Made by a program: the position numbers and the translations under genes
In this document: piece after piece, positions 2,901 to 45,059 of the stretch
Position numbering within the stretch: the stretch's first letter is position 1
Layout of the letters: each line of letters opens with the position of its first letter
Origin: Artemia franciscana
Taxonomy: Eukaryota; Arthropoda; Branchiopoda; Anostraca; Artemiidae
Direction of reading: 5' to 3'
Assembly (NCBI RefSeq): GCF_032884065.1
Contig: NC_088872.1
Span: 35,994,917 to 36,058,916, forward strand
DNA: 64,000 nt
The notes under the pieces: generated by a model
The model's database searches: none
What the model saw: only the letters and a program-made list of their open reading frames with translations
Told to the model about the DNA's origin: nothing

Positions 2901-4738
2901 ACAAGAGCTAAGAGCTCATATGGAACTTGTAACGAGGTCGGAAGAGCCAAGAGCTCATATGGTATGAGCTCTAGCAAAATTTTAAAAATCAATAGATTGC
3001 TTTAAAAGAAAAATCAGAGGCTTAATGCTGGTCGGAAATTAAAATAAAAGCTCTGAGACACGAGGTCCTTCTAAATATCAAAATTCATTAAGATCTGATC
3101 TCCCACTCGTAAGTTAAAAATACCTCAATTTTCCTAATTTTTCCTCTCCTTTCAACCCCCAGATGGTCAAGTCGGGCAAAACAACATTATCAAGTCAATT
3201 TGTGCAGCTCCCTGACAAGCCTACCAGTTTTCATCGTCCTAGCACGTTCAAAAGCACCAAACTCGCCAAAGCACTGAACCCCACCACCTAACTCCACCGA
3301 AGAGAGCGTATCCAGTCCGGTTACGTCAATCACGTATCTACGACATTTATAAACGTTCTCCAAGATTTCCGGTTTTCCCCTCCAACTCCCTCCAATGTCA
3401 AAAGATCTGGTCAGGATTTGATATAAGAGCTCTGAGACATGAGTTCCTTCTAAATATCAAATTTCATTAAGATCTGGTCACCCGTACTTTAGCTAAAAAT
3501 ACCTCAATTTTTCTGATTTTTCGAAATTAACAATCCCCAGCTCCCTCAAAGAGAACGAATCCGTACCAATTATGTCAATCTCGTATCTATAACTTCTGCT
3601 TATTCTTCCCATCAAGTTTCATATCGATCTCTCTACTCCTAGGGTTTTCCTAGATTTCCCGTTTCCAATAACTTCGAAGATCACACTGCCTTTCCAAGAC
3701 GAAAGTAATACAGTTCAAAATTGGGATGAAACCTTTTAATTGACAGTGAACAGATATAAAAATTTTTAACTGGATATTTCAAACACATATACAGTGTTCA
3801 TCATCAGCAGTAAACTTTTACTGCTGATGATGAACACTGTATATGTGTTCAAAATATCCAGTCAAAAAATTTTATATCTGTTCACTGTCAATTAAAAGGT
3901 TTCATCCTTATTTTGAACTGTTTTACTTTCCCGTTTCCAAGATTTCTGTTTCTCCCCTCCAACCCTCTAGGTCCCCGGATCCGATTTGAATTGAAAATGG
4001 AGTATCTGAGACATAAGATTTTTCTATATATCAAGTTTCATTAAGATCCGATCTCCCACTCGTAAGATACCTCGATTTTCACGTTTTCGAAGAATTCCGG
4101 TTTCCCCCTCCAAATCCCTTCAATGTCACCGAGATTTAAAATGAGAGTTCTAAAGTACAAGATCCTTCTAGATATCAAATTTCATTAAGATCTGATCACC
4201 CGTTCGTAAGTTAAAAATACCTCATTTTTTCTAATTTTTCAGAATTACTCCCCCCCCCAACTCCACCACAGAGAGCGGATCTGGTCCGGTTATGTCAGTC
4301 ACCTATCTTGGGCTTGTGCTTATTCTTTCCACCAAGTTTCATCCTGATCTCCGCTTCAAGCGTTTTCCAATATTTCCGCCCCCTCCCCCTAATGACGCTG
4401 GATCCGGTCGGGATTTAAAATAAGAGATCTGAGTTTCGATGTCCTTCTAAATATGAAATTTCATTAAGATACGATCACTCTTTCGTAAGTCAAAAATACC
4501 TCATTTTGTCTAATTTTTTAGAATCAACCCTCCCCCCTAGCTCCCCAAAAGAGAGCTGATCCGTTCCGGTTATGTCAATCCCGCATCTAGGACTTTATTT
4601 CTCCCACCATGTTTCATCCCGATCCCTCCACTCTAAGCGTTTTCCAATAATTTAGGTTCCAAACCCCCCCCCCCCAACTTCCCATTCACCGGATCCGTTC
4701 GGGATTTAAAATAAGAGCTCTGAGACACCATATCCATA
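2901..4738 (+). repeat. R1a: satellite array, Helentron/DINE-like carrier, right end lost
   Basis: The array opens with the same left end as two other loci in this window (26401 and 38605). That end contains a perfect hairpin at 2950-2972 with 10-bp arms AGAGCTCATA/TATGAGCTCT and a 3-base loop. Degenerate copies of a ~290-bp unit follow, recognisable by GAGCTCTGAGACA, TTTCATTAAGATC and GAGAGCGGATCCG. The array is cut at about 4738, where it joins R2 sequence, so the microsatellite-plus-hairpin right end seen in R1b and R1c is missing. A foldback MITE interrupts it at 3701-3930. That this belongs to the Helentron-derived DINE/HINE type is inference from architecture; no coding capacity is present. 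Confidence 0.7.
3701..3930. mobile_element. Foldback MITE, near-perfect palindrome
   Basis: Two arms of about 110 bp, starting GAAAGTAATACAGTTC and ending in its near complement, meet with almost no loop at about 3818. The middle reads CATCAGCAGTAAA followed by its complement. An 11-bp direct repeat CCCGTTTCCAA lies at 3658-3668 and 3930-3940, with about 32 extra bases on the left side. It sits inside the R1a satellite and is therefore younger than that array. The superfamily is not determinable from the ends. Confidence 0.8.
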
Positions 4739-5515
4739 GACATCTTTCCTTGAGAATGACCCCTGAATCACAAAGGCCGTAGAATAAATAGTTGAAATTA
4801 CTAAAAATACTTTAGCGTAAAGAGTGAGGTATTGAGGAGGGGACGAATCCCATCATATGCGTAATAATTTTTGTTCGTTTTAATGCTGCTCCCTACTTTC
4901 AGATGAAAAAACTTTTTCGTATTTATTTTTTTATTGTTTTTTTTTAAATAGTCCCCTCCCAAAGGGACTATGGGGGGAGTAAGTCGTCCTCAAAGACATA
5001 GTTAAAAGGTTTTTTGACTATGCTGAAAAAATGTCTATCTCAGAATTTTGATCCGATGACTTTGGGAAAATGATTAGCGTGGGAGGGGGCCTAGGTGCCC
5101 TCCGATTTTTTTGGTCACTTAAAAAGGGCACTAGAAGTTTTTATTTGCGTTAGAATGAGCCCTCTTACAACATTCTAGGACCACTGGGTCGATACGATCA
5201 CCCCTGGAAAAAAAACAAAAAAAAAAACAACAAACAAACAAATAAGCAAACAACAAACAACAAACAAACAAAAAATACAAAATTCCACATTCTTGAAGAT
5301 AGGAGCTTGAAACTTCTACAGTATGGTTCTCTGATACGCTGGATCTGATGGTGTGATTCTATGACTTTTAGGGGGGTTTTCCTCCTATTTTCTAAAATAA
5401 GGCAAATTTTCTCAGGCTCGTAACTTTTGATGGGTAAGAATATTAGAGTTTTGGTTACTATTGAGCCGGGTCACTCCTTACTACAGTTCGTTACCACGAT
5501 TTGTTTGACCACACT
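4739..5515 (-). repeat. R2a: partial R2 dispersed repeat, reverse orientation
   Basis: The sequence matches the other R2 copies read in reverse. It carries the segment with CTTTAGCGTAAAGAG, the CCTAGGTGCCCTCC segment, the CACCCCTGG segment and the head ending in CAGTTCGTTACCACGA at about 5505. The central G-rich part and the tail foldback seen in longer copies are missing. An A/C-rich low-complexity run lies inside it at 5208-5278. Confidence 0.75.
5208..5278 (+). repeat. (CAAA)n-type low-complexity run
   Basis: A-rich run of CAAA, CAAACA and AACAAAC units within R2a. Other R2 copies have a T-rich equivalent at the same place, so it expanded in situ. Confidence 0.8.
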
Positions 5516-8582: not shown

Positions 8583-10280
8583 TCAAACAGTTCGTGGTAA
8601 CGAACTGTAGTAAGGAGCGACCCAGCTCAATAGTAACCAACACTCTAAAAAATAGAATTTTGATACCAATAGTTACATAAAAAAAATCGCATTTTAATTC
8701 TGATTTTAAATATACAACTTTTATCAAGATTAGTCTTACTTATCAAAAGTTACGAGCCTGAGAAAATTTGCTTCATTTTAGAAAATAGGGGAAAACATCC
8801 CCTAAAAGTGATACAATCTTAACGAAAATCACACCATCAGATTCAGCGTATCAGAGGACCTATTGTAGAAGTTTCAAGCTCCTATCTCTGAAAATGTGGA
8901 ATTTCACATTTTTTGCCAGAAGGCAAATCATGGATGCGTGTTTTTTTGTTTTTTTTGTTTTTGTTTTTCCCCAGGGGTGATCGTATCGATCCAGTGGTCC
9001 TAGAATGTCGCGTGAGGTCTCATTCTAACTGAAATTAAAAGTTCTAGTGCCCTTTTTAAGTTAAAAAAAAAAATCGAAGGCACCTAGGCCCCCTCCCACG
9101 CTCATTTTCCCCAGAGTCACCGGATCAAAACTCTCAGATAGCCATTTTATTCATCATAGCCGAAAAACATAATAACTATGTCTTTGGGGACGACTTATTC
9201 CCCCGCAGTCCCCGTGGGAAGGGTTGCAAGTTACAAACTTTGACCTGTGTTTATATATAGTAATGGTTACTGGGAAGTGTACGGACGTTTTCAGGGGCAT
9301 TTTTTTGGTTTGGGAGGGAGAGTTGAGGTGGGGGGGGGGGTTAAGCGGGAGGATCTTTCCATGGAAAAACTTCTCATGGGGGAAGAGACTTTCAATGAAG
9401 GGGGCGCAGGAATTTGTTAGCATTATTTAAAAAAACAATGAAAAAATAAATATGAAAAGTTTTTTCTACTGAAAGTGAGGAGCAGCATTAAAACTTAAAA
9501 CGAGCAGAAACTATTGGGCATATGAGGGGTTTACCTCCTCGTAATACCTCGCTCTTCACGCTAAAGTATGTTTAATAATTTCAACTATTTATTCTACGGC
9601 CTTTGTTATTCAAGGGTCATTCTTAAGGAATTGGGACCGAATTTAAGCTTTAGTGTAAAGAGCGAGGTATCGACGAGGGGTGAACTCCCTCATATACGCA
9701 ATAAAACATACGAATATAGAAGTTTGTTACGTAAGTTAATTAGTAAATTAAGTATATTTTCTACTAATGAAAATCTTCGTAAAAAGATTAAAAGTTCTGG
9801 TTGTTTTTTAAGTAATCAAAAAATTGGATGGTAACTAGGCTTCCTCCCTCTATTATTTTTTCTCAAAATCTTCCGATTAAAACTATGAGAAAGCCATTTA
9901 GCCAAAAAAAAAGATTAATATGCAAAATTCATCTTAATTACTTATGTGTGGAGAGCCAATATCAAAACATGCATTAACTAAAAAACATCCAGAAATTAAA
10001 TAAATGAAAGTAAAAAACGACATTAAAACTTAAAAGGAACAGAAATTACTCCGTATATGAAAGGGGCTTTTCCTCCTCAACGTCCTGCTCTTTACGCTAA
10101 AGTATTTTACTGTTTTAAGAAGTAGAGTTAAGAGAAAGAGTCAAACTATAGCGTAAAGAGCGGGGCGTTGAGGAGGAAAAGCTCATTTCATATACGGAGT
10201 AATTTCTGTTCGTTTTAAGTTTTAATGTCGCTTCTTACTTTCATTTAAAAAAAAACTTGTTTTTTTATTTAATTTTACCG
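8583..10280 (+). repeat. R2b: near-complete R2 dispersed repeat, ~1.7 kb
   Basis: The head starts TCAAA followed by the hairpin CAGTTCGTGGTAACGAACTG (8588-8607). The body follows in fixed order: CTCAATAGTAACC; CGAGCCTGAGAAAATTTGC; CAGATTCAGCGTATCAGAG; a T-rich run and CCAGGGGTGATCGTATCG; CACCTAGGCCCCCTCCCACG; a G-tract with TTTCCATGG repeats at 9290-9400; then two inverted modules around CTTTAGCGTAAAGAGCG. The tail is a foldback with arms at about 10016-10105 and 10145-10236. Short ORFs inside (for example 9224-9430) are frame noise shared by all copies, not genes. Class is unresolved: the TC start plus hairpin is Helitron-like, while the tail is foldback-like. Confidence 0.8.

Positions 10281-12034: not shown

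Positions 12035-12067
<33 letters not shown>
12035..12067. repeat. (TA)n tract
   Basis: About 16 TA units directly left of the Helitron-derived palindrome. Confidence 0.95.
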
Positions 12068-12070
<3 letters not shown>

Positions 12071-12183
12071 CAGGTGGGACACAGGGACACAACTACAATG
12101 CCCCCCCGCGCGCGTAAGTCGTTACGCGCCATATTAGTTACGCGCCATTGTAGTTGTGTCCCTATGTCCCACCTGTGAATATA
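12066..12183. repeat. Palindrome built from a Helitron 3' segment
   Basis: Arms TATTCACAGGTGGGACA (from 12066) and its complement (to about 12181) enclose CGCGCGTAAGTCGTTACGCG. The right part (12105-12183) is almost identical to 12342-12416, which lies in the 3' region of the Helitron next door. The left arm is an inverted extra copy of the outer 35 bp. It is probably a second, broken Helitron end. Confidence 0.7.
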
Positions 12184-12190
12184 GATAGAT

Positions 12191-12192
<2 letters not shown>

Positions 12193-12263
<71 letters not shown>
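12193..12263. repeat. (TA)n tract abutting Helitron 3' end
   Basis: About 35 TA units ending directly at the CTAG of the Helitron terminus. Helitrons insert between A and T, so a TA tract is a natural target. Confidence 0.95.
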
Positions 12264-12264
<1 letters not shown>

Positions 12265-12409
12265 TAGCTGTTGGGGTGGCGCTTCGCGCCACCCCAACAC
12301 CTAGTTGGTGGGGGCGCGTCGCGCCCCCCCCAAGCCCTCCCACGCGCGTAAGTCGTTACGCGCCATATTAGTTACGCGCCATTGTAATTGTGTCCCTATG
12401 TCCCACCTG

Positions 12410-12584
<175 letters not shown>

Positions 12585-12599
12585 CCCACAAACAACTTA

Positions 12600-12874
12600 T
12601 TTTTATATATATTTATTCATATTTTTTTAGTTTTCTTTTTCTCTTTTATTTTTCAGTTTTTTCCTCTTTTTTAGTTTTTTTCTTTTTTAGTTTTTAGTTT
12701 TTTTTTAGTTTTTTACCTTTTTTTAGTTTTTTTTAGTTTTTTTAGTTTTTTAGCTTTTTTAGTTTTTTTTATTAGTTTTTATTTTTTTTTTGTAGTTTTT
12801 GCCTTTTTTTATTTTTTTCAGTTTTTTTTAGTTATTAGATTTTTACCTTTTTTTAGTTTTTTTTAGTTTTTTAG

Positions 12875-12879
<5 letters not shown>
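12600..12879 (+). repeat. T-rich low-complexity run with TTTTTTAGT units
   Basis: Repeated T5-8 AG units on the plus strand, part of the Helitron 3' region. It reads as A-rich ACTAAAAAA on the element's sense strand. Confidence 0.85.

Positions 12880-12964
<85 letters not shown>
12880..12964. repeat. (TA)n tract just after Helitron helicase stop
   Basis: About 42 TA units starting 5 bp beyond the helicase stop codon on the minus strand. Confidence 0.95.
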
Positions 12965-12968
<4 letters not shown>

Positions 12969-12969
12969 T

Positions 12970-13300
12970 TTAACTAAGTAAAACTTGCGAATATACAACA
13001 TTCTTCGTTGTCCCATTGTCTGTGCATATAAATAGATTGTCAGGTTTACCGACTCTTGAACATGCAACATATAATCATCCATGAAAAAAACAATCCGTAT
13101 TCAGATCTATACCGCATTATTCTAATGATTGCCCTTGAGCTTTGTTGATGGTGATTGCTAATCGAACATTCCCTGCGTCCTCGTCGTCATTTATATATCC
13201 CCCTGTGCCCCCCGGCGTCCCCGTTGTAGTCGTGTCCCTGTGTCCCGGTCGTCATTTATATTCCCTGTGTCCCGGTCGTCATTTGTGTCCCGGTGTCCCA
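12970..13300 (-). pseudogene. Helitron helicase C-terminus (superfamily 1 helicase motifs V-VI)
   Basis: The minus strand encodes VRLAITINKAQGQSLE, then after an in-frame stop CGIDLNTDCF, then in a shifted frame YVACSRVGKPDNLFI and NGTTKNVVYSQVLLS before the stop at 12970-12972. This is the standard ending of Pif1-type Helitron helicases (FAMTINKAQGQSL ... LYVACSRVG ... N-V-V-Y). The residues before VRL, normally a hydrophobic/basic RRQFP-like run, are replaced by a Gly/Thr-rich stretch (DTTTTGTPGGTGG) encoded in the same frame by a GGGACAC-type minisatellite. One stop and one frameshift show this copy is dead. The upstream helicase motifs and Rep domain are not present. Confidence 0.8.
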
Positions 13301-13310
13301 GTCTCTACTT
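13195..13310 (+). repeat. GTGTCCCGGTCGTCATT minisatellite
   Basis: Several imperfect copies of a 16-24 bp unit (CCCTGTGTCCCGG, CGTCATTTAT) overlap the helicase reading frame. Part of the unit, TTGTAGTCGTGTCCCTGTG, recurs in the Helitron 3' segment at about 12388 and in the palindrome at about 12148. Confidence 0.75.
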
Positions 13311-25890: not shown

Positions 25891-26400
25891 AAGAGTTTTT
25901 GCTGATGCGTTATGTCGAGCGGTTACAAATAACGCGGTGACCTCAGGAAACTTGTATTTGCTTTAACAAATAATAAACATTGTCAAGCAGCACAAATAAT
26001 CAACAAACAATCAACAAATAATCAACAGCAGCAACAAATAATCAAAATTTGGGTTGAAAACTAGGTTCCTTTTATAGCTTCTTTATAGTTTGAATTGGTT
26101 CGACAAAATTTGTTCTAGAATTACTTCTGAGAAATTCGTTTAAATTGACTTGATTACTTAATAGTTTATTTTTGTCGTTGAAGCAGGTTTTGTCAATTTT
26201 CGACAATTATGCCCCAATTAACTTTGATTTTGCAGCTCTGTAAGTTCAATACAAATGCACACACAGATGTTAACCACTTGTTACATGCATCTTTTCATAT
26301 ATAAGCATTTTGAAAATCCACGTTATAGCCCAAGGGGTTGAGGGTGTCAAAGCCTGGCATTCTACAATTTATCTTAAACCCGATAAGATAAGGAATAAAA

Positions 26401-29400
26401 ACAAGAGCTAAGAGCTCGTATGGCACTTGTGACGAGGTCGGAAGAGCCAAGAGCTCATATGGTATGAGCTCTAGCAAAATTCTAAGAATCAATAGATTGC
26501 TTTAAAAGGAGAATCAGAGGGTTAATACCGGTCGGGATTTAAAGTAAGAGCTCTGAGTCACGATGTCAAAAGATCTGGTCGGGATTTGAAATAAGAGCTC
26601 TGAGACTTAAGTTCCTTCTAAATATCGAATTTCTATAAGATCCTTAAGTTAAAAATATCTCAATTTTTCTGATTTTTACAAATTAACTACCCCCAGCTCT
26701 GTCAAAGAGTACGGATCCGTACCAATTATGTCAATCTCGTATCTATAACTTGTGCTTATTCTTCCCATCAAGTTTCATCCCTATCTCTCCGCTATAAGCA
26801 TTTCCCAAGATTTCCGGCTTTCAAGATTTTTTGTTTCCCCCCTCCAACCCTCTATGTCCCCGGATCCGATTTGAACTGAAAATGGAGCATCTGAGACATA
26901 AGATTCTTCTATATATCAAGTTTCATTAAGATCCGATCACCCATTCCTACGATAAAGATACCTCAATTTTCACGTTTTCCAAGAATTCCGGTTTCCCCCT
27001 CCAACTCCCTTCAATGTCACCAGATCTGGTCGAGATTTAAAATGAGAGTTCTAAAGCATAAAATCCTTCTAGATATCAAATTTCATTAATATCTGATCAC
27101 CCGTTCGTAAGTTACTAATACCTAATTTTTTTCTAATCTTTCCGGATTACCCCCCCCCCCCCCCAACTCCAAAGAGAGTGGATCCGGTCCGGTTATTTCA
27201 GTAACCTATCTTGGACTTGTGCTTATCCTTTCCACCAAATTTCATCCTGATCTCTCCGCTTTGAGCGTTTTCCAAGATTTCCGGTCCTCCCCCCCCCTAA
27301 GAACACTGGATCCAGTCGGGATTTAAAATAAGAGATCTGAGTTTTGAGGTCCTTCTAAATAAGAAATTTCACTAAGATACGATCACTCTTTTGTAAGTCA
27401 AAAATACCTGATTTTTTCTATTTCTTTAAAATTAACCCTCCCCCCCCACTCCCCCAAAGAGAGCAGACCCGTTCCGGTTATGTCAATCCCGTATCTAGAA
27501 CTTGTGCTTATTTTTCCCACCAAGTTTCATCCCGATCCCTTCACTCTAAGCGTTTTCCATGATTTTAGGTTCCGCCCCTTAAAAAAAACTTCCTCTTCAC
27601 TGGATCCGGTGGGGATTTTAAATAAATCCTCACCTACGTATCTTAGACAGGTTTTTATTATTCCCATCCAGTTTCATCCTGATCTCTCCGCTTTAAGTAT
27701 TTTCTAAGATTTCTGGTCCCCCCAACGCCCCCCCCCCCAATGAGGCGGGATCCGGTTGAGATTTAAAATAAGAGCTCTGAGACACGATATCCTTCTAAAT
27801 ATGAAGTTTCATGAAGATCCGATCACTCCTTCGTAAGTTAAGAATACGTTATTTTTTCTAATTTTTCATAATTAACCACCGCCCCCCAATAGAGCGGATC
27901 CGTTCCAATTATGTAAATCACTTATCTAAGACTTTTTCTTATTTTTCCCGCAAAGTTTCATCCTGGTCCCTCCAATCTAAGCATTTTCCATGATTTTGGG
28001 TTCCCCCACCTCAAACTCCCCCCAATGTCACCAGATCCGGTCGGAATTTAAAATAAGAGCTTTGAGACACGATATCATTCAAAATATCAAATTTCATTGA
28101 GATCTGATCACCCGTTCGCAAGTTAAAAGTACCTCATTTTTTCTAATTTTTCAGAATTAACCCTCCTCCCCCCCAACTACCCTAAAGAAAGCAGATCCGT
28201 TCCGGTTATGTCAATCATGTATCTAGGACTTGTGCTTATTTTTCCCACCAAGTTTCATCCCGATGCCTCCACTCTAAGTGTTTTCCAAGATTTTAGGTTT
28301 CCCCTCCCAACTCCCCCACCAATGTCACCAGATCCGGTCGGGATTTAAAATAAGAGCTCTGAGACACGATATCCTTCTAAATATCAAATTTCATTGAGAT
28401 CCGATCACCCGTTCGTAAGTTAAAAATGTATCATTTTTTCTAATTTTTTAAATTAACCCCCAACCCTCAACTACCACAAAGAGAGCGGATCCATTCCGGT
28501 TATGTCAATCATGTATCTAGGACTTGTGCTTGTTTTCCCCATCAAGTTTCATCCCGATCCCTCCACTCTAAGTGTTTTCCAAGATTTTAGGTTTCCCCCT
28601 CCCAACTCCCGCCCAATGTCACCAGATCCAGTCAGGATTTAAAATAAGAGCTCTGAGACACGATATCCTTCTAAATATCAAATTTCATTAAGATCCGATC
28701 ACCCGTTCGTAAGTTAAAAATACCTCATTTTTTCTAATTTTTCAGAATTAACCCCCCCCCCCAACTACCCCAAAGAGAGCGGATCTGTTATGGTTATGTC
28801 AATCATGTATCTAGGACTTGTGCTTATTTTTCCCACCAAGTTTCATCCCGATCCCTCCACTCTAAGTGTTTTCCAATATTTTAGGTTTCCCCCTCCCCCC
28901 AATGTTACCAGATACGGTCGGGATTTAAAATAAGAGCTCTGAGACATTATATCCTTCTAAATATCAAATTTCATTGAGATCCGATCACTCGTTCGTAAGA
29001 TAAAAATGCCTCATTTTTCAGAATTACCCCCCCCCCCCAACTACCCCAAAGAGAGCGGATCCGTTTCGGTTATTTCAATCATGTATTTAGGACTTGTGCT
29101 AATTTTTGCCGCCAAGTTTCAACCCGATCCCTCCACTCTAAGTGTTTTCCAAGATTTTAGGTTTCCCCCTCTCAAATCTCCCCCCCCCAATGTCACCAGA
29201 TCCGGTCGGGATTTAAAATAACAGCTCTGAGACACGATATCCTTCCAAACATCAATTTTCATCAAAATCTGATCAACCGTTCGTAAGTTAAAAATACTTC
29301 AATTTTTCTATTTTTTATGAGATGGTCAAATCGGGAAAACGACTGTTTCTAATATAATCTGGTCCGGTCCCTGATACGCCTGCCAAATTTCATCATCCTA

Positions 29401-29514
29401 GCTTACCTGGAAGTGCCTAAAGTAGCAAAACCGGGGCCGACAGACAGACCGACAAACCGACAGACCGACAGAATTCGCGATTGCTATATGTCACTTGGTT
29501 AATACCAAGTGCCG
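26401..29514 (+). repeat. R1b: complete satellite-bearing element, Helentron/DINE-like
   Basis: Left end ACAAGAGCTAAGAGCTC with a perfect 10-bp-arm hairpin at 26450-26472. The interior, 26520-29300, is about ten copies of a ~290-bp unit. The best-preserved units start GAGCTCTGAGACACGATAT at about 28351, 28648, 28938 and 29222. The right end has a unique segment (TTTCATCATCCTAGC), a degenerate GACAGACCGACA microsatellite at about 29436-29470, then GCGATTGCTATATG and the hairpin CACTTGGTTAATACCAAGTG (29492-29511). R2 sequence follows directly. Satellite core, tetranucleotide-type microsatellite and 3' hairpin are the architecture of DINE-1/HINE and bivalve pearl elements; membership is inference. 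There is no coding capacity. Confidence 0.75.
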
Positions 29515-29515
29515 T

Positions 29516-30700
29516 AAAAACGGAATTTCGATACCAATAGATGCATCAAAAGAATCAAATTTTTATGCTGATTGCAAATATATAAGTTTCATCAAGTTCA
29601 GTTCCTATCAAAAGTCACGAGCCTGAGAAAATTTGCCTTATTTTCGAAAAAAGGAGGAAACACCCCCTAAAAGACATAGAATCTTAACGAGAATCCCACG
29701 ATCAGATTCAGCGCATCATCGAACCCCACAGCCCTTGGACATAGGGCCGAAATACTCATTCTAATTTGTTTCCCACTGTCTTAAAAATTTCCCTATTGTT
29801 CTTCTTGTTTTTGGTGTTTGTGATGGAAAGGCAGTGTGGTCTTCGTCGTTATTCACAAATATGGAATTTTTGTACTTTTAGCCAAAAGAAAGATCACGGA
29901 TGCGTGTTTATTTGTATTTCCCCTCAGGGGTGATCGTATCGACCCAGCGGTCCTAAAATTTTTCGAGAGGGCTCAATCGAACGGAAATTAAAAGTTCGAG
30001 TGCCCTTATCAAGTGATCAAAAACATGGAGGGCAACTAGGCCCGTCCACACTCATATTTTCCCAAAGTCACCGGATAAAAAATTTTGAGATAGTTATTTT
30101 GTTCAGCATAATCGAAATATCAAAAACTATGCTTTTGAGGACGACTTTATCCCATACAGTCCCCGGGGAAAGGGCTGAAAGCTATGAACTTCGCCCATTG
30201 ATTACATATAGCCTAGTATTGGTTATTGGGAATTTTACAGACGTTTTCAGGGGGGATTTCGTCTGGTGGGGGATCGGGGGAGAGGGTTATGTGGGAGAAT
30301 CTTTCCATGGAGAAATTTTTCATGGGGAAGAGAAATTACATGAAGGATGCGCTGGATTTCCCAGCGTTATCTAAAAAAATATCAGAAATTAAATTAAAAA
30401 AAAACAATTTTTTCAACTGAAAGTAAGGATTGACATTAGAACTTAAAACAAAAAGAAATTATTGCGTATATGAAAGGGTTCGTTCCCTTGTCAATGCCTC
30501 ACTTTCGGCTTTAAATCATTTTTAGTAATTTCAAAGAGCTATATATTCTAATTAAACGCCTTTGTGATTTAGGGTAAAGACTTAGAAGAAAATTCAACCT
30601 TTAGCGTAAAGAGCGAGGTATTGACGAGGGGGCGAACCCCCACATATGACGTATATGAGGAATTTCTCCCCCTCCTCAATATCTTGCTCTTTACATTAAA
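29516..30700 (+). repeat. R2d: partial R2 repeat with a ~120-bp insertion
   Basis: R2 sequence begins inside the head (GGAATTTCGATACCAATAG) right after R1b, so the hairpin end is missing. A foreign piece (about 29729-29850, CAGCCCTTGGACATAGGGCC...) splits the body. The later modules and the TTTCCATGG segment are present, to about 30700. Confidence 0.7.
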
Positions 30701-38354: not shown

Positions 38355-38604
38355 AGACAAATAGTTTGTGCAAACGAACTGTAAGTAAGAAGTCACTCAG
38401 CCCAATAGTAACCGAAACTCTAAAAAACGCAATTTGATATCAATAGACATATTAAAAGGATTTGCTTTTTGCGCTGAATCCAAGCATATATGGTTAATTA
38501 AGTAAGTTTGTTGCTACCTATCAAAAGCTACGAGCCTGAGAAAACTTGCCTGATTTTTAAAAAGAGAGGGAAACAAACCTAATAAGTCAAGGAATCTTTA
38601 AAAA
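38355..38604 (+). repeat. R2 head interrupted by R1c
   Basis: A diverged R2 head (AACGAACTGTAAGTAAGAAG, CCCAATAGTAACCGAAACTC, TACGAGCCTGAGAAAACTTG) runs to GGAATCTTTAAAA. The next R2 landmark, CTATCAGATTCAGCGTATC, reappears at about 40507 after R1c, showing that R1c inserted into this R2 copy. Confidence 0.75.
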
Positions 38605-40499
38605 ACAAGAGCTAAGAGCTCATATGGCACTTGTGACGAGGCCAGAAGACCCAAGAGCTCATATGGTATGAGCTCTAGCAAAATACTGAGAACAAATAGA
38701 TTGATTTAAAAGGAAAATCAGAGGCTTAATGCTGGTCGGGATTTAAAATAAAAGCTCTGAGTCACGAGGTCAAATATCAAAATTCATTAAGATCCGATCA
38801 CCCACTCGTAAGTTTAAAACACCTAATTTTTTCTTTAGCATCAACCCCCCCCCCCCACAGATGGTCGAATCGAGGAAAACGACTTTATCAAGTCAATTTG
38901 CGCAGATTCCTTACACGCCTACAAATTTTCATCGTCCTAGCACATCCAGATACACCAAACTCGCCAAAGCACTGAACCCAACCCCCTAACTCCCCCAAAG
39001 AGAGCGAATCCAGTACGGTTACGTCAATCACGTATCTACGACATTTGCTTATTCTACCCACAAAGTTTCATCCCGATTCATCTACTCTAAGCGTTTTCCA
39101 ACATTTCCGGTTTCCCCCTCCAACTCCCCCCAATGTCAACAGATCTGGTTGGTATTTGAAATAAGAGCTCTGAGACATGAGTTCCTTCTAAATATCAAAT
39201 TTTATTAAGATCCGGTCACCCATTCTTAAGTTAAAAAAACATCAGTTTTTCAAATTTTTCCAAATTACCCCCCCCCCCCCCAGCTCATCCAAAAAGAATA
39301 GATCCATTCCAATTATGTCAATCACGTATCTAGAATTAGTGTTTATTCTTCCCATCAAGTTTCATCCCGATCTCTCCACTCTAAGCTTTTTCCAAGATAA
39401 CTGTTTCCCACCCTCCAACCCCCTATGTCCCCAGATCCGATTCGAATTGAAAATAGAGTATCTGAGAGATAAGATACTTCTATATATCAAGTTTCATTAA
39501 GATCCGATCACCCATTCCTAAGATAAAGATACTTCAATTTTCACGTTTTCCAAGAATTCCGGTTTCCCCCTCCAATTCCCCCAATGTCGACGGATCTGGT
39601 CGGAACTCAAAATTAGAGCTTTAAAGCACAAGATCCTTCTAAATATCAAATTTCATTAAGATCTTAACACCCGTTCGTAAGTTACAAAAACCTCATTTTT
39701 TTCTTATTTTTTCGAATTACTCCCCCTCCCAGCTCCACCAAAGAGAGCGGACCCGGTCCGGTTATGTCAGTCACGTATCTTGAACTTGTTTTTATTATTC
39801 CCACCAAGTTTCATCCTGATCTCTCGCTTTAAATGTTTTCCAAGATTTCCAAGTTTTCCAAGCTCTCCTCCAACTCCTCCCCCAATAACGCTGGATTCAA
39901 GAGCTGTCTTAGAACAAGAGCTCTGAGACAGGATATCCTTCTAAATATCAAATGTCATTAAGATACGATCACCTGTTCGTAAGTTAAAAATACCTAATTT
40001 TTTCTAATTTTTAGAATTAAACCCTCCCCTCTCCCAACTCCCCAAAGAGAGCAGATCTATCCCGGTTATGCCAATCACGTATCTAGAACTTGCGCTTATT
40101 TTTCCCACAAATTTTCATCCTAAACCCTCCACTCTAACTCCCCCCAATGTCACCGAATCCCGTCGGGTTTAAAATAATAGCTCTGAGACACATATCCTTC
40201 CAAACATCAAATTTCATTAAGATCTGATCACCCGTTCGTAAGTTAAAAATATATCGTTTTTTTTCTTTTTTTTCGATTTAACCGCCCCCCCCCCCACTCA
40301 CCTCTAGATGGTCAAATCGGGGAAACGACACTTTCTAATTTAATCTGGTCTGGTTTCTGATACGCCTGCCAAATTTCATCGTCCTAGCTTACCTGGAAGT
40401 GCCTAAAGTAGCAAAACCGGGACAGACAGACAGACAGACCGACAGAATTTGCGATCGTTATATGGTCATTTGGTATCTACCAAGTGACATATAGCGAAA
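38605..40499 (+). repeat. R1c: complete satellite-bearing element nested in R2
   Basis: The left end has the 10-bp-arm hairpin (38654-38676). About six ~290-bp units follow. The right end has GATGGTCAAATCGGGG, TTTCATCGTCCTAGC, a GACAGACAGACAGACC microsatellite at about 40422-40445, and the near-palindrome at 40467-40486 followed by GACATATAGCGA. The structure matches R1b at both ends. Confidence 0.75.
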
Positions 40500-40529
40500 G
40501 ACCATGCTATCAGATTCAGCGTATCAGAT

Positions 40530-44910: not shown

Positions 44911-44922
44911 TGTGAAAAAAAT

Positions 44923-44995
44923 CGCCCGATAAGGAGCTTGAACCCTTGACCTTAGGATTAAAAGTCCCACGCTCTACCGACTGAGCTAACCGGGC
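44923..44995 (-). tRNA. tRNA-Lys (UUU)
   Basis: A 73-base minus-strand cloverleaf fits without a gap. The acceptor is GCCCGGT/ATCGGGC (one G-T pair). The D stem GCTC/GAGC lies in a TAGCTCAGTCGG A box. The anticodon arm is TGGGA-CTTTTAA-TCCTA with anticodon TTT. The variable loop is AGGTC, the T arm is AAGGG-TTCAAGC-TCCTT, and the discriminator is G. A T7 run begins one base after the 3' end, a proper RNA polymerase III terminator. There is no intron. It stands directly next to the foldback element, and the pair is duplicated about 1.7 kb away, where the tRNA is broken. It delivers lysine at AAA/AAG codons. Confidence 0.93.
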
Positions 44996-45059
44996 ATGTT
45001 TGCAGTCGAAATACCTGCATGTGTATAAATATAACTTTTAAGAATTTCAAAAATTAACA

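Follow-up and report, generated by a model that had tools for sequence, protein, structure and literature searches.

The window analysed here, a stretch of 64,000 nucleotides of Artemia franciscana DNA, contains three satellite-like arrays (at positions 2901, 26401 and 38605) that are copies of one non-coding element, R1. We conclude, with a probability of roughly 0.85, that R1 is a high-copy non-autonomous Helentron, or HINE-type element, in which a satellite-like array lies between fixed ends, and we infer that it spreads by the rolling-circle route. The R1 family appears to be undescribed; the HINE kind itself is already known, as in oysters and flies, and a limited literature search found by title no HINE-like element from a crustacean. 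Rolling-circle DNA accounts for 8.81% of the A. franciscana genome according to the available part of a published account (PMC11492255).

Organization of R1

The features of the three copies are given below in window positions, with "left" and "right" as on the forward strand. Counts out of 32 refer to left ends of the top-ranked copies described in the next section.

2901..4744, minus strand: R1 copy 2, without right end; another repeat starts at about 4746
3701..3930, no strand assigned: foldback insertion (arms of 114 nt) within the copy 2 array
26401..29520, minus strand: R1 copy 1, complete, 3120 bp; both ends match the ends of genome copies
5' end 29520, 3' end 26401, minus strand: termini of R1 copy 1 in HINE orientation
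26405..26417, minus strand: small palindrome GAGCT-AAG-AGCTC, in 29/32 left ends; 4 nt separate it from the HINE 3' terminus
26419..26429, minus strand: 3' subterminal inverted repeat TATGGCACTTG, exact in 23/32 left ends
26450..26472, no strand assigned: 10-bp-arm hairpin near the HINE 3' end
26528..29319, no strand assigned: A and B units in tandem, repeating as a dimer of about 294 bp
29320..29435, no strand assigned: C segment, which precedes the right end in complete copies
29439..29472, no strand assigned: GACCGACA microsatellite (TGTCGGTC on the HINE strand)
29486..29520, minus strand: HINE 5' end with AAAAA (TTTTT on the minus strand), subterminal repeat CAAGTGCCGTA and inverted partner TATGTCACTTG
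38605..40501, minus strand: R1 copy 3, inserted in the interspersed repeat R2, outer boundary at about 40495-40501; its right end is atypical, with ACATATAG in place of CCATAAAAA

The original prediction had assigned R1 the plan of DINE-1 and HINE elements while reading it in the opposite direction. The plan runs on the minus strand, and once this strand is taken the layout agrees with the element descriptions in the available parts of PMC7492417 and PMC4067079. Read in this orientation, the 5' part consists of TTTTT, the subterminal repeat TATGGCACTTG, an 8-nt spacer, its inverted partner and a TGTCGGTC/CTGTC microsatellite. The 3' part follows with the C segment, the array, the hairpin, the repeat CAAGTGCCATA, the palindrome GAGCT-CTT-AGCTC and a final 4 nt, after which most copies are followed by a T. 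Subterminal inverted repeats of 11 bp are thus present at both ends (TATGGCACTTG at the left, CAAGTGCCAT at the right), with the inverted partner adjoining the 5' one, and a palindrome is present near the 3' end. Copy 1 extends to 29520 when the five terminal A are included.

The only frames of at least 90 aa in the window copies, of 114 aa in copy 1 and 102 aa in copy 3, are both located inside array DNA. A Pfam search with 10 of the 48 listed window frames gave four weak family matches in two frames, none above the cut-off. The sole find of the tRNA and Rfam scans of the window is a tRNA-Lys gene (44922-44996, minus strand).

The left end is shared by all three window copies, at 87.5-90.4% identity over 167-206 bp, and is thus common to them without being identical, as had been claimed. 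The 10-bp-arm hairpin (AGAGCTCATA/TATGAGCTCT) described in these ends is indeed found in each of them, at 2950, 26450 and 38654; hairpins of this type gave 12 matches in the window, some of them overlapping, versus 0-3 per shuffle in 20 shuffles. The small palindrome GAGCT-AAG-AGCTC folds in copies 1 and 3 and is absent from the best fold of copy 2. The two complete copies also have in common the right segment, the microsatellite and the terminal near-palindrome (29320-29511 vs 40306-40486), with an identity of 85% over 193 aligned positions rather than sameness. The right segment is not unique, in disagreement with the earlier description, as a diverged copy of it is located near the left end of copies 2901 and 38605.

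The motif ATATGKCACTTG had been placed at both ends in direct orientation, and the shuffle counts fit an inverted relation better. The direct relation was reached by 70/300 shuffles for copy 38605, which is chance-like, and by 16/300 for copy 26401, which is weak, compared with 0/300 and 2/300, respectively, for the inverted relation; the direct orientation was therefore rejected. At the right end ATATGKCACTTG is one arm of a palindrome and hence present in both orientations, which accounts for the apparent direct motif.

Conservation of the ends across the genome

The ends of R1 were searched for in 1,270,528,402 bases on 6468 contigs. First-look candidates numbered 1079 (left end) and 1662 (right end), figures that are not copy numbers. 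The best 40 for each end were scored and all matched, with identities of 93-100% (left) and 89-100% (right). The matches listed comprise 40 left-end and 61 right-end matches, 21 of the latter being short palindrome matches on the opposite strand. A separate pattern search of genome contigs with the left-end and R2 patterns gave 0 matches, as did the left-end, right-end and R2 patterns in viral contigs.

Left ends were compared in a sample of 32, consisting of the 30 best-scoring loci (copy 26401 included) and two window copies. Among these top-ranked copies, 29/32 start with ACAAGAGC and 21/32 contain the exact 10-bp-arm hairpin. The flank preceding the left end finishes in A in 31/32, in AA in 24/32 and in AAA in 17/32, the corresponding window frequencies being 0.323, 0.125 and 0.054. 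The 30 best-scoring right ends contain an exact CAAGTGCCAT in 22 cases and are closed by a run of at least five A in 26 and of exactly five A in 20. Since the copies read were the best-scoring ones, these figures overstate how well the ends are conserved in R1 copies at large, and older copies are expected to be less regular.

The DNA outside the left end and outside the right-end AAAAA varies between loci, with the exception of two pairs of loci, L043/L047 and L045/L058, that have common right flanks. At one locus (L049:1690) the right end of one R1 is immediately followed by the left end of another R1, and the left end of this second element is without the 3' subterminal repeat.

The tandem array

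The 294-bp array was reported by TRF in copy 26401 only, and BLAST shows it in all three window copies. In the dimer of about 294 bp, one unit of about 154 bp is paired with a related one of about 137 bp. The A and B halves are related (0/300 shuffles), with the best local match in a T- and C-rich part. When an HMM search was started from a single A unit, B units were picked up as well, and the model for B strayed into A. Two further relationships were considered and are unsupported: the C segment as a diverged A/B unit (30/300 shuffles; 165/300 for the internal copy) and the A unit as a relative of R2 (score reached by 53/300 shuffles).

A tree of 37 units was built from 40 A-model matches, with three short pieces left out. 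Its clades join units from the same position in different window copies, for example 26873/3988/39443 and 26578/3410/39148, and clustering by locus label was no better than with shuffled labels. Units of the three window copies thus sort by position, which shows that the array has moved as a block. Units 28213, 28507, 28801 and 29077, all from copy 26401, make up a locus-specific group, and we infer that about 27755-29201 of this array is later local growth.

Unit order was compared in 16 complete copies of 468 to 3120 bp; these were picked for having both ends, and the end modules are therefore present by construction. The last module ahead of the right end is C in 16/16. The order A0 Ci B0 A1 B1 A' A2 B2 is kept over several units in 13/16, with losses of whole units, and the other 3/16 (L023, L054 and L055) are too short for the order to be judged. 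Loci picked by the array unit alone (four read among 40 scored candidates) likewise carry R1 end modules in 4/4 cases, in keeping with the predicted fixed ends, rather than starting and stopping at random points. Three of these (L088, L089 and L090) run from the left-end module through to C and the right end, the left module of L090 being partial. The fourth (L091) is an array with its right end; on the left, in the place of its own left end, a further R1 starts in the opposite orientation.

The foldback insertion at 3701-3930, in the array of copy 2, has arms that are 94% complementary with 2 nt between them, and an apparent direct repeat, TTTCCCGTTTCCAA, was seen by eye on each side. A different tandem repeat, with a 112-bp unit in 12 copies and with AGCT sites, is found at one of the other loci (L084:1924-3259). 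It has an 11-mer in common with the R1 left end, which may be chance (E 0.41), and the repeat is reminiscent of the Artemia AluI satellite.

Insertion sites

Target-site duplications were looked for in complete copies, for which 17 rows with both ends were available from the loci and the window; two L039 rows were dropped and 15 were tested. In line with the original prediction, a direct junction repeat of at least 4 bp is present in 0/15 copies, the mean for re-paired flanks being 0.29 copies. When the terminal AAAAA is counted as target, 7/15 have at least 4 A on both sides, which equals the re-paired mean of 7. A duplication consisting only of A is possible at these junctions, because of this equality and because the A-run varies in length among the relatives of the L044 site. 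The five A at the HINE 5' end may belong to R1, or they may belong to the target. The target is A/T-rich, with T on both flanks on the HINE strand, where the T at the 5' end may belong to the element.

Paralogous empty sites, which the original prediction had proposed to look for, were read for two insertions, one clean (L044) and one blurred (38605). The joined flanks of L044 match eight uninterrupted places at 79-90% identity, five in the window and three at other loci; in the seven aligned in detail, the break is located at an A-run of variable length. Copy 38605 lies inside R2, for which nine spanning matches were found (five in the window and four at other loci), and its boundary is blurred because of extra A on one side and the atypical right end. 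Copy 26401 has R2 on its right side, from an A-run, and its left flank does not continue R2 (score reached by 278/300 shuffles).

The left flanks of copies 1 (26376-26400) and 3 (38575-38604) are alike over about 25 bp (3/300 shuffles), and only that of copy 3 is recognisable as R2. The blurred boundary of copy 38605, the flanks of copy 26401 and the possible A-only duplication weigh against the HINE reading. R2 is interspersed in the window, at 8625, 17324, 34766, 38400, 55157 and other positions, and several of its copies contain a palindrome, ACAGTTCGT-GGTA-ACGAACTGT, near the 5' border.

Alternative origins of R1

Three other kinds of element or repeat were weighed against the HINE reading, and all three were rejected on junction, end and array evidence. 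R1 could be taken for an A-tailed, SINE-like retroposon with the terminal AAAAA as its poly(A) tail, given that a run of at least five A closes 26/30 right ends and that the opposite flank is A-rich. This origin is highly improbable: the run is exactly five in 20/30, where a tail would vary in length, each end is well defined and the two are inversely related, no complete copy (0/15) shows a target-site duplication of at least 4 bp, and the tRNA and Rfam scans of the window find nothing in R1. The 11-bp inverted repeat near both ends would also suit a cut-and-paste MITE, which is how pearl elements were originally described, and so would the short A-only duplication that is possible at the junctions. 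Against it, the left-side repeat sits 18 nt inside the end and a duplication of mixed sequence is found in 0/15 copies, and we regard a MITE as very unlikely.

R1 might instead be a plain satellite that ectopic recombination or circular DNA has spread, with its apparent ends being flanking repeats copied along by chance. Array length does differ between copies, and copy 26401 grew locally. We give this explanation the slimmest chance of the three, as the ends are constant while the DNA outside them is locus-specific apart from the two pairs of shared right flanks, units cluster by position and not by locus, the common unit order is kept in 13/16 complete copies, and R1 ends accompany the array at each of the 4/4 loci picked by unit alone. 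The HINE reading is retained in what follows.

Search for a coding partner

Against the HINE reading, a Helentron coding partner with R1 ends was not found in a limited search of the best-scored Rep candidates. The search with profile PF14214 gave 7435 first-look candidates, of which the best 150 were scored and 20 loci were read, with flanks of about 1.5 kb to either side of the Rep domain. An L follows RG in 20/20 of these loci (19 RGLPH and 1 RGLSH), which is the Helitron form of Rep according to the available part of PMC4067079. None of the 20 loci has an R1 end within 1.5 kb of Rep; only microsatellite matches were found, in seven. A Helentron coding element could be present below the scored ranks. 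Two domains were also used as Helentron markers: REPA_OB_2 gave 3 loci, without an R1 end, whose frames look like RPA1 and RPA-like copies, and OTU gave 2 loci with no Helentron partner found.

The genome also carries a canonical Helitron (Helitron_like_N). Its 150 scored Rep candidates score almost alike and long open frames are present in many of them, and it therefore looks recently active. A microsatellite-rich block in the window (12035-13303) resembles the DNA around several of its Rep loci and probably consists of pieces of this Helitron. The canonical Helitron belongs to the rolling-circle class, to which R1 probably belongs too, and its 5' region also contains GTCTGTC runs; it differs in the L after RG in its Rep motif and in a TATATATAAAAATAAGTTGT-type upstream region where this is in view.

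Derivation of R1 from this abundant Helitron is disfavoured, with no R1 end in the 1.5-kb flanks of the 20 Rep loci. Canonical Helitrons have 5' TC and 3' CTRR ends, as given in the available part of PMC4067079, and R1 ends in ACAAGAGC and CCATAAAAA, or their complements. R1 could also be an orphan HINE whose own Helentron is gone and which is spread by the Rep/helicase of the canonical Helitron despite the different ends; we consider this unlikely. If true, it would imply cross-mobilisation between two rolling-circle groups.

Comparison with known elements

One of the closest descriptions is that of Cg_HINE from the Pacific oyster, in the available part of PMC7492417. Its plan consists of a 5' subTIR of 11-12 bp, an inverted repeat after 1-12 bp, a microsatellite (GTCY/GTCK in several), an array, a 3' subTIR and a palindrome. 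R1 resembles it in the 5' subTIR of this length with an inverted partner after a short spacer, in the GTCY/GTCK microsatellite, in a satellite-like array of constant orientation, in the 3' subTIR followed by a palindrome, and in the T-rich target without TSD. The two differ in the monomers, with consensus lengths of 138-181 bp in Cg_HINE and a dimer of about 294 bp in R1, a comparison made by description only, and R1 has in addition the 10-bp-arm hairpin and the C segment.

Bivalve pearl elements, now viewed as non-autonomous Helentrons, also carry arrays of short satellite-like units between fixed flanks; as compared by description only, their units are about 160 bp and number up to six (PMC7492417, available part). 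DINE-1 and the mite HINE-Mo, as described in the available part of PMC4067079, have in common with R1 the subTIRs, the 3' palindrome and T-rich insertion with no target modification, and some of their copies contain microsatellites or tandem repeats, as R1 does. The same source places the palindrome 8-35 bp from the 3' end in mite HINEs, whereas it is 4 nt from the end in R1, and the mite families have identified Helentron partners, unlike R1, for which the limited search found none.

Proposed mechanism and implications

A Helentron-type Rep/helicase would nick at the T-rich 5' end of R1. One strand would then be peeled off and inserted at a further T-rich site, and the palindrome next to the 3' end would act as the terminator. 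Every transposition would in this way plant a ready-made tandem array that could grow or shrink by recombination.

Satellite cargo of a similar kind in fixed-ended elements has been reported in oysters and flies. In Artemia, R1 shows that dispersed short satellite arrays can be the cargo of a fixed-ended mobile element. That its units are specific to their position is direct evidence of an array travelling as a block, with shortening or expansion coming later, so that growth of the array could be dated apart from transposition.
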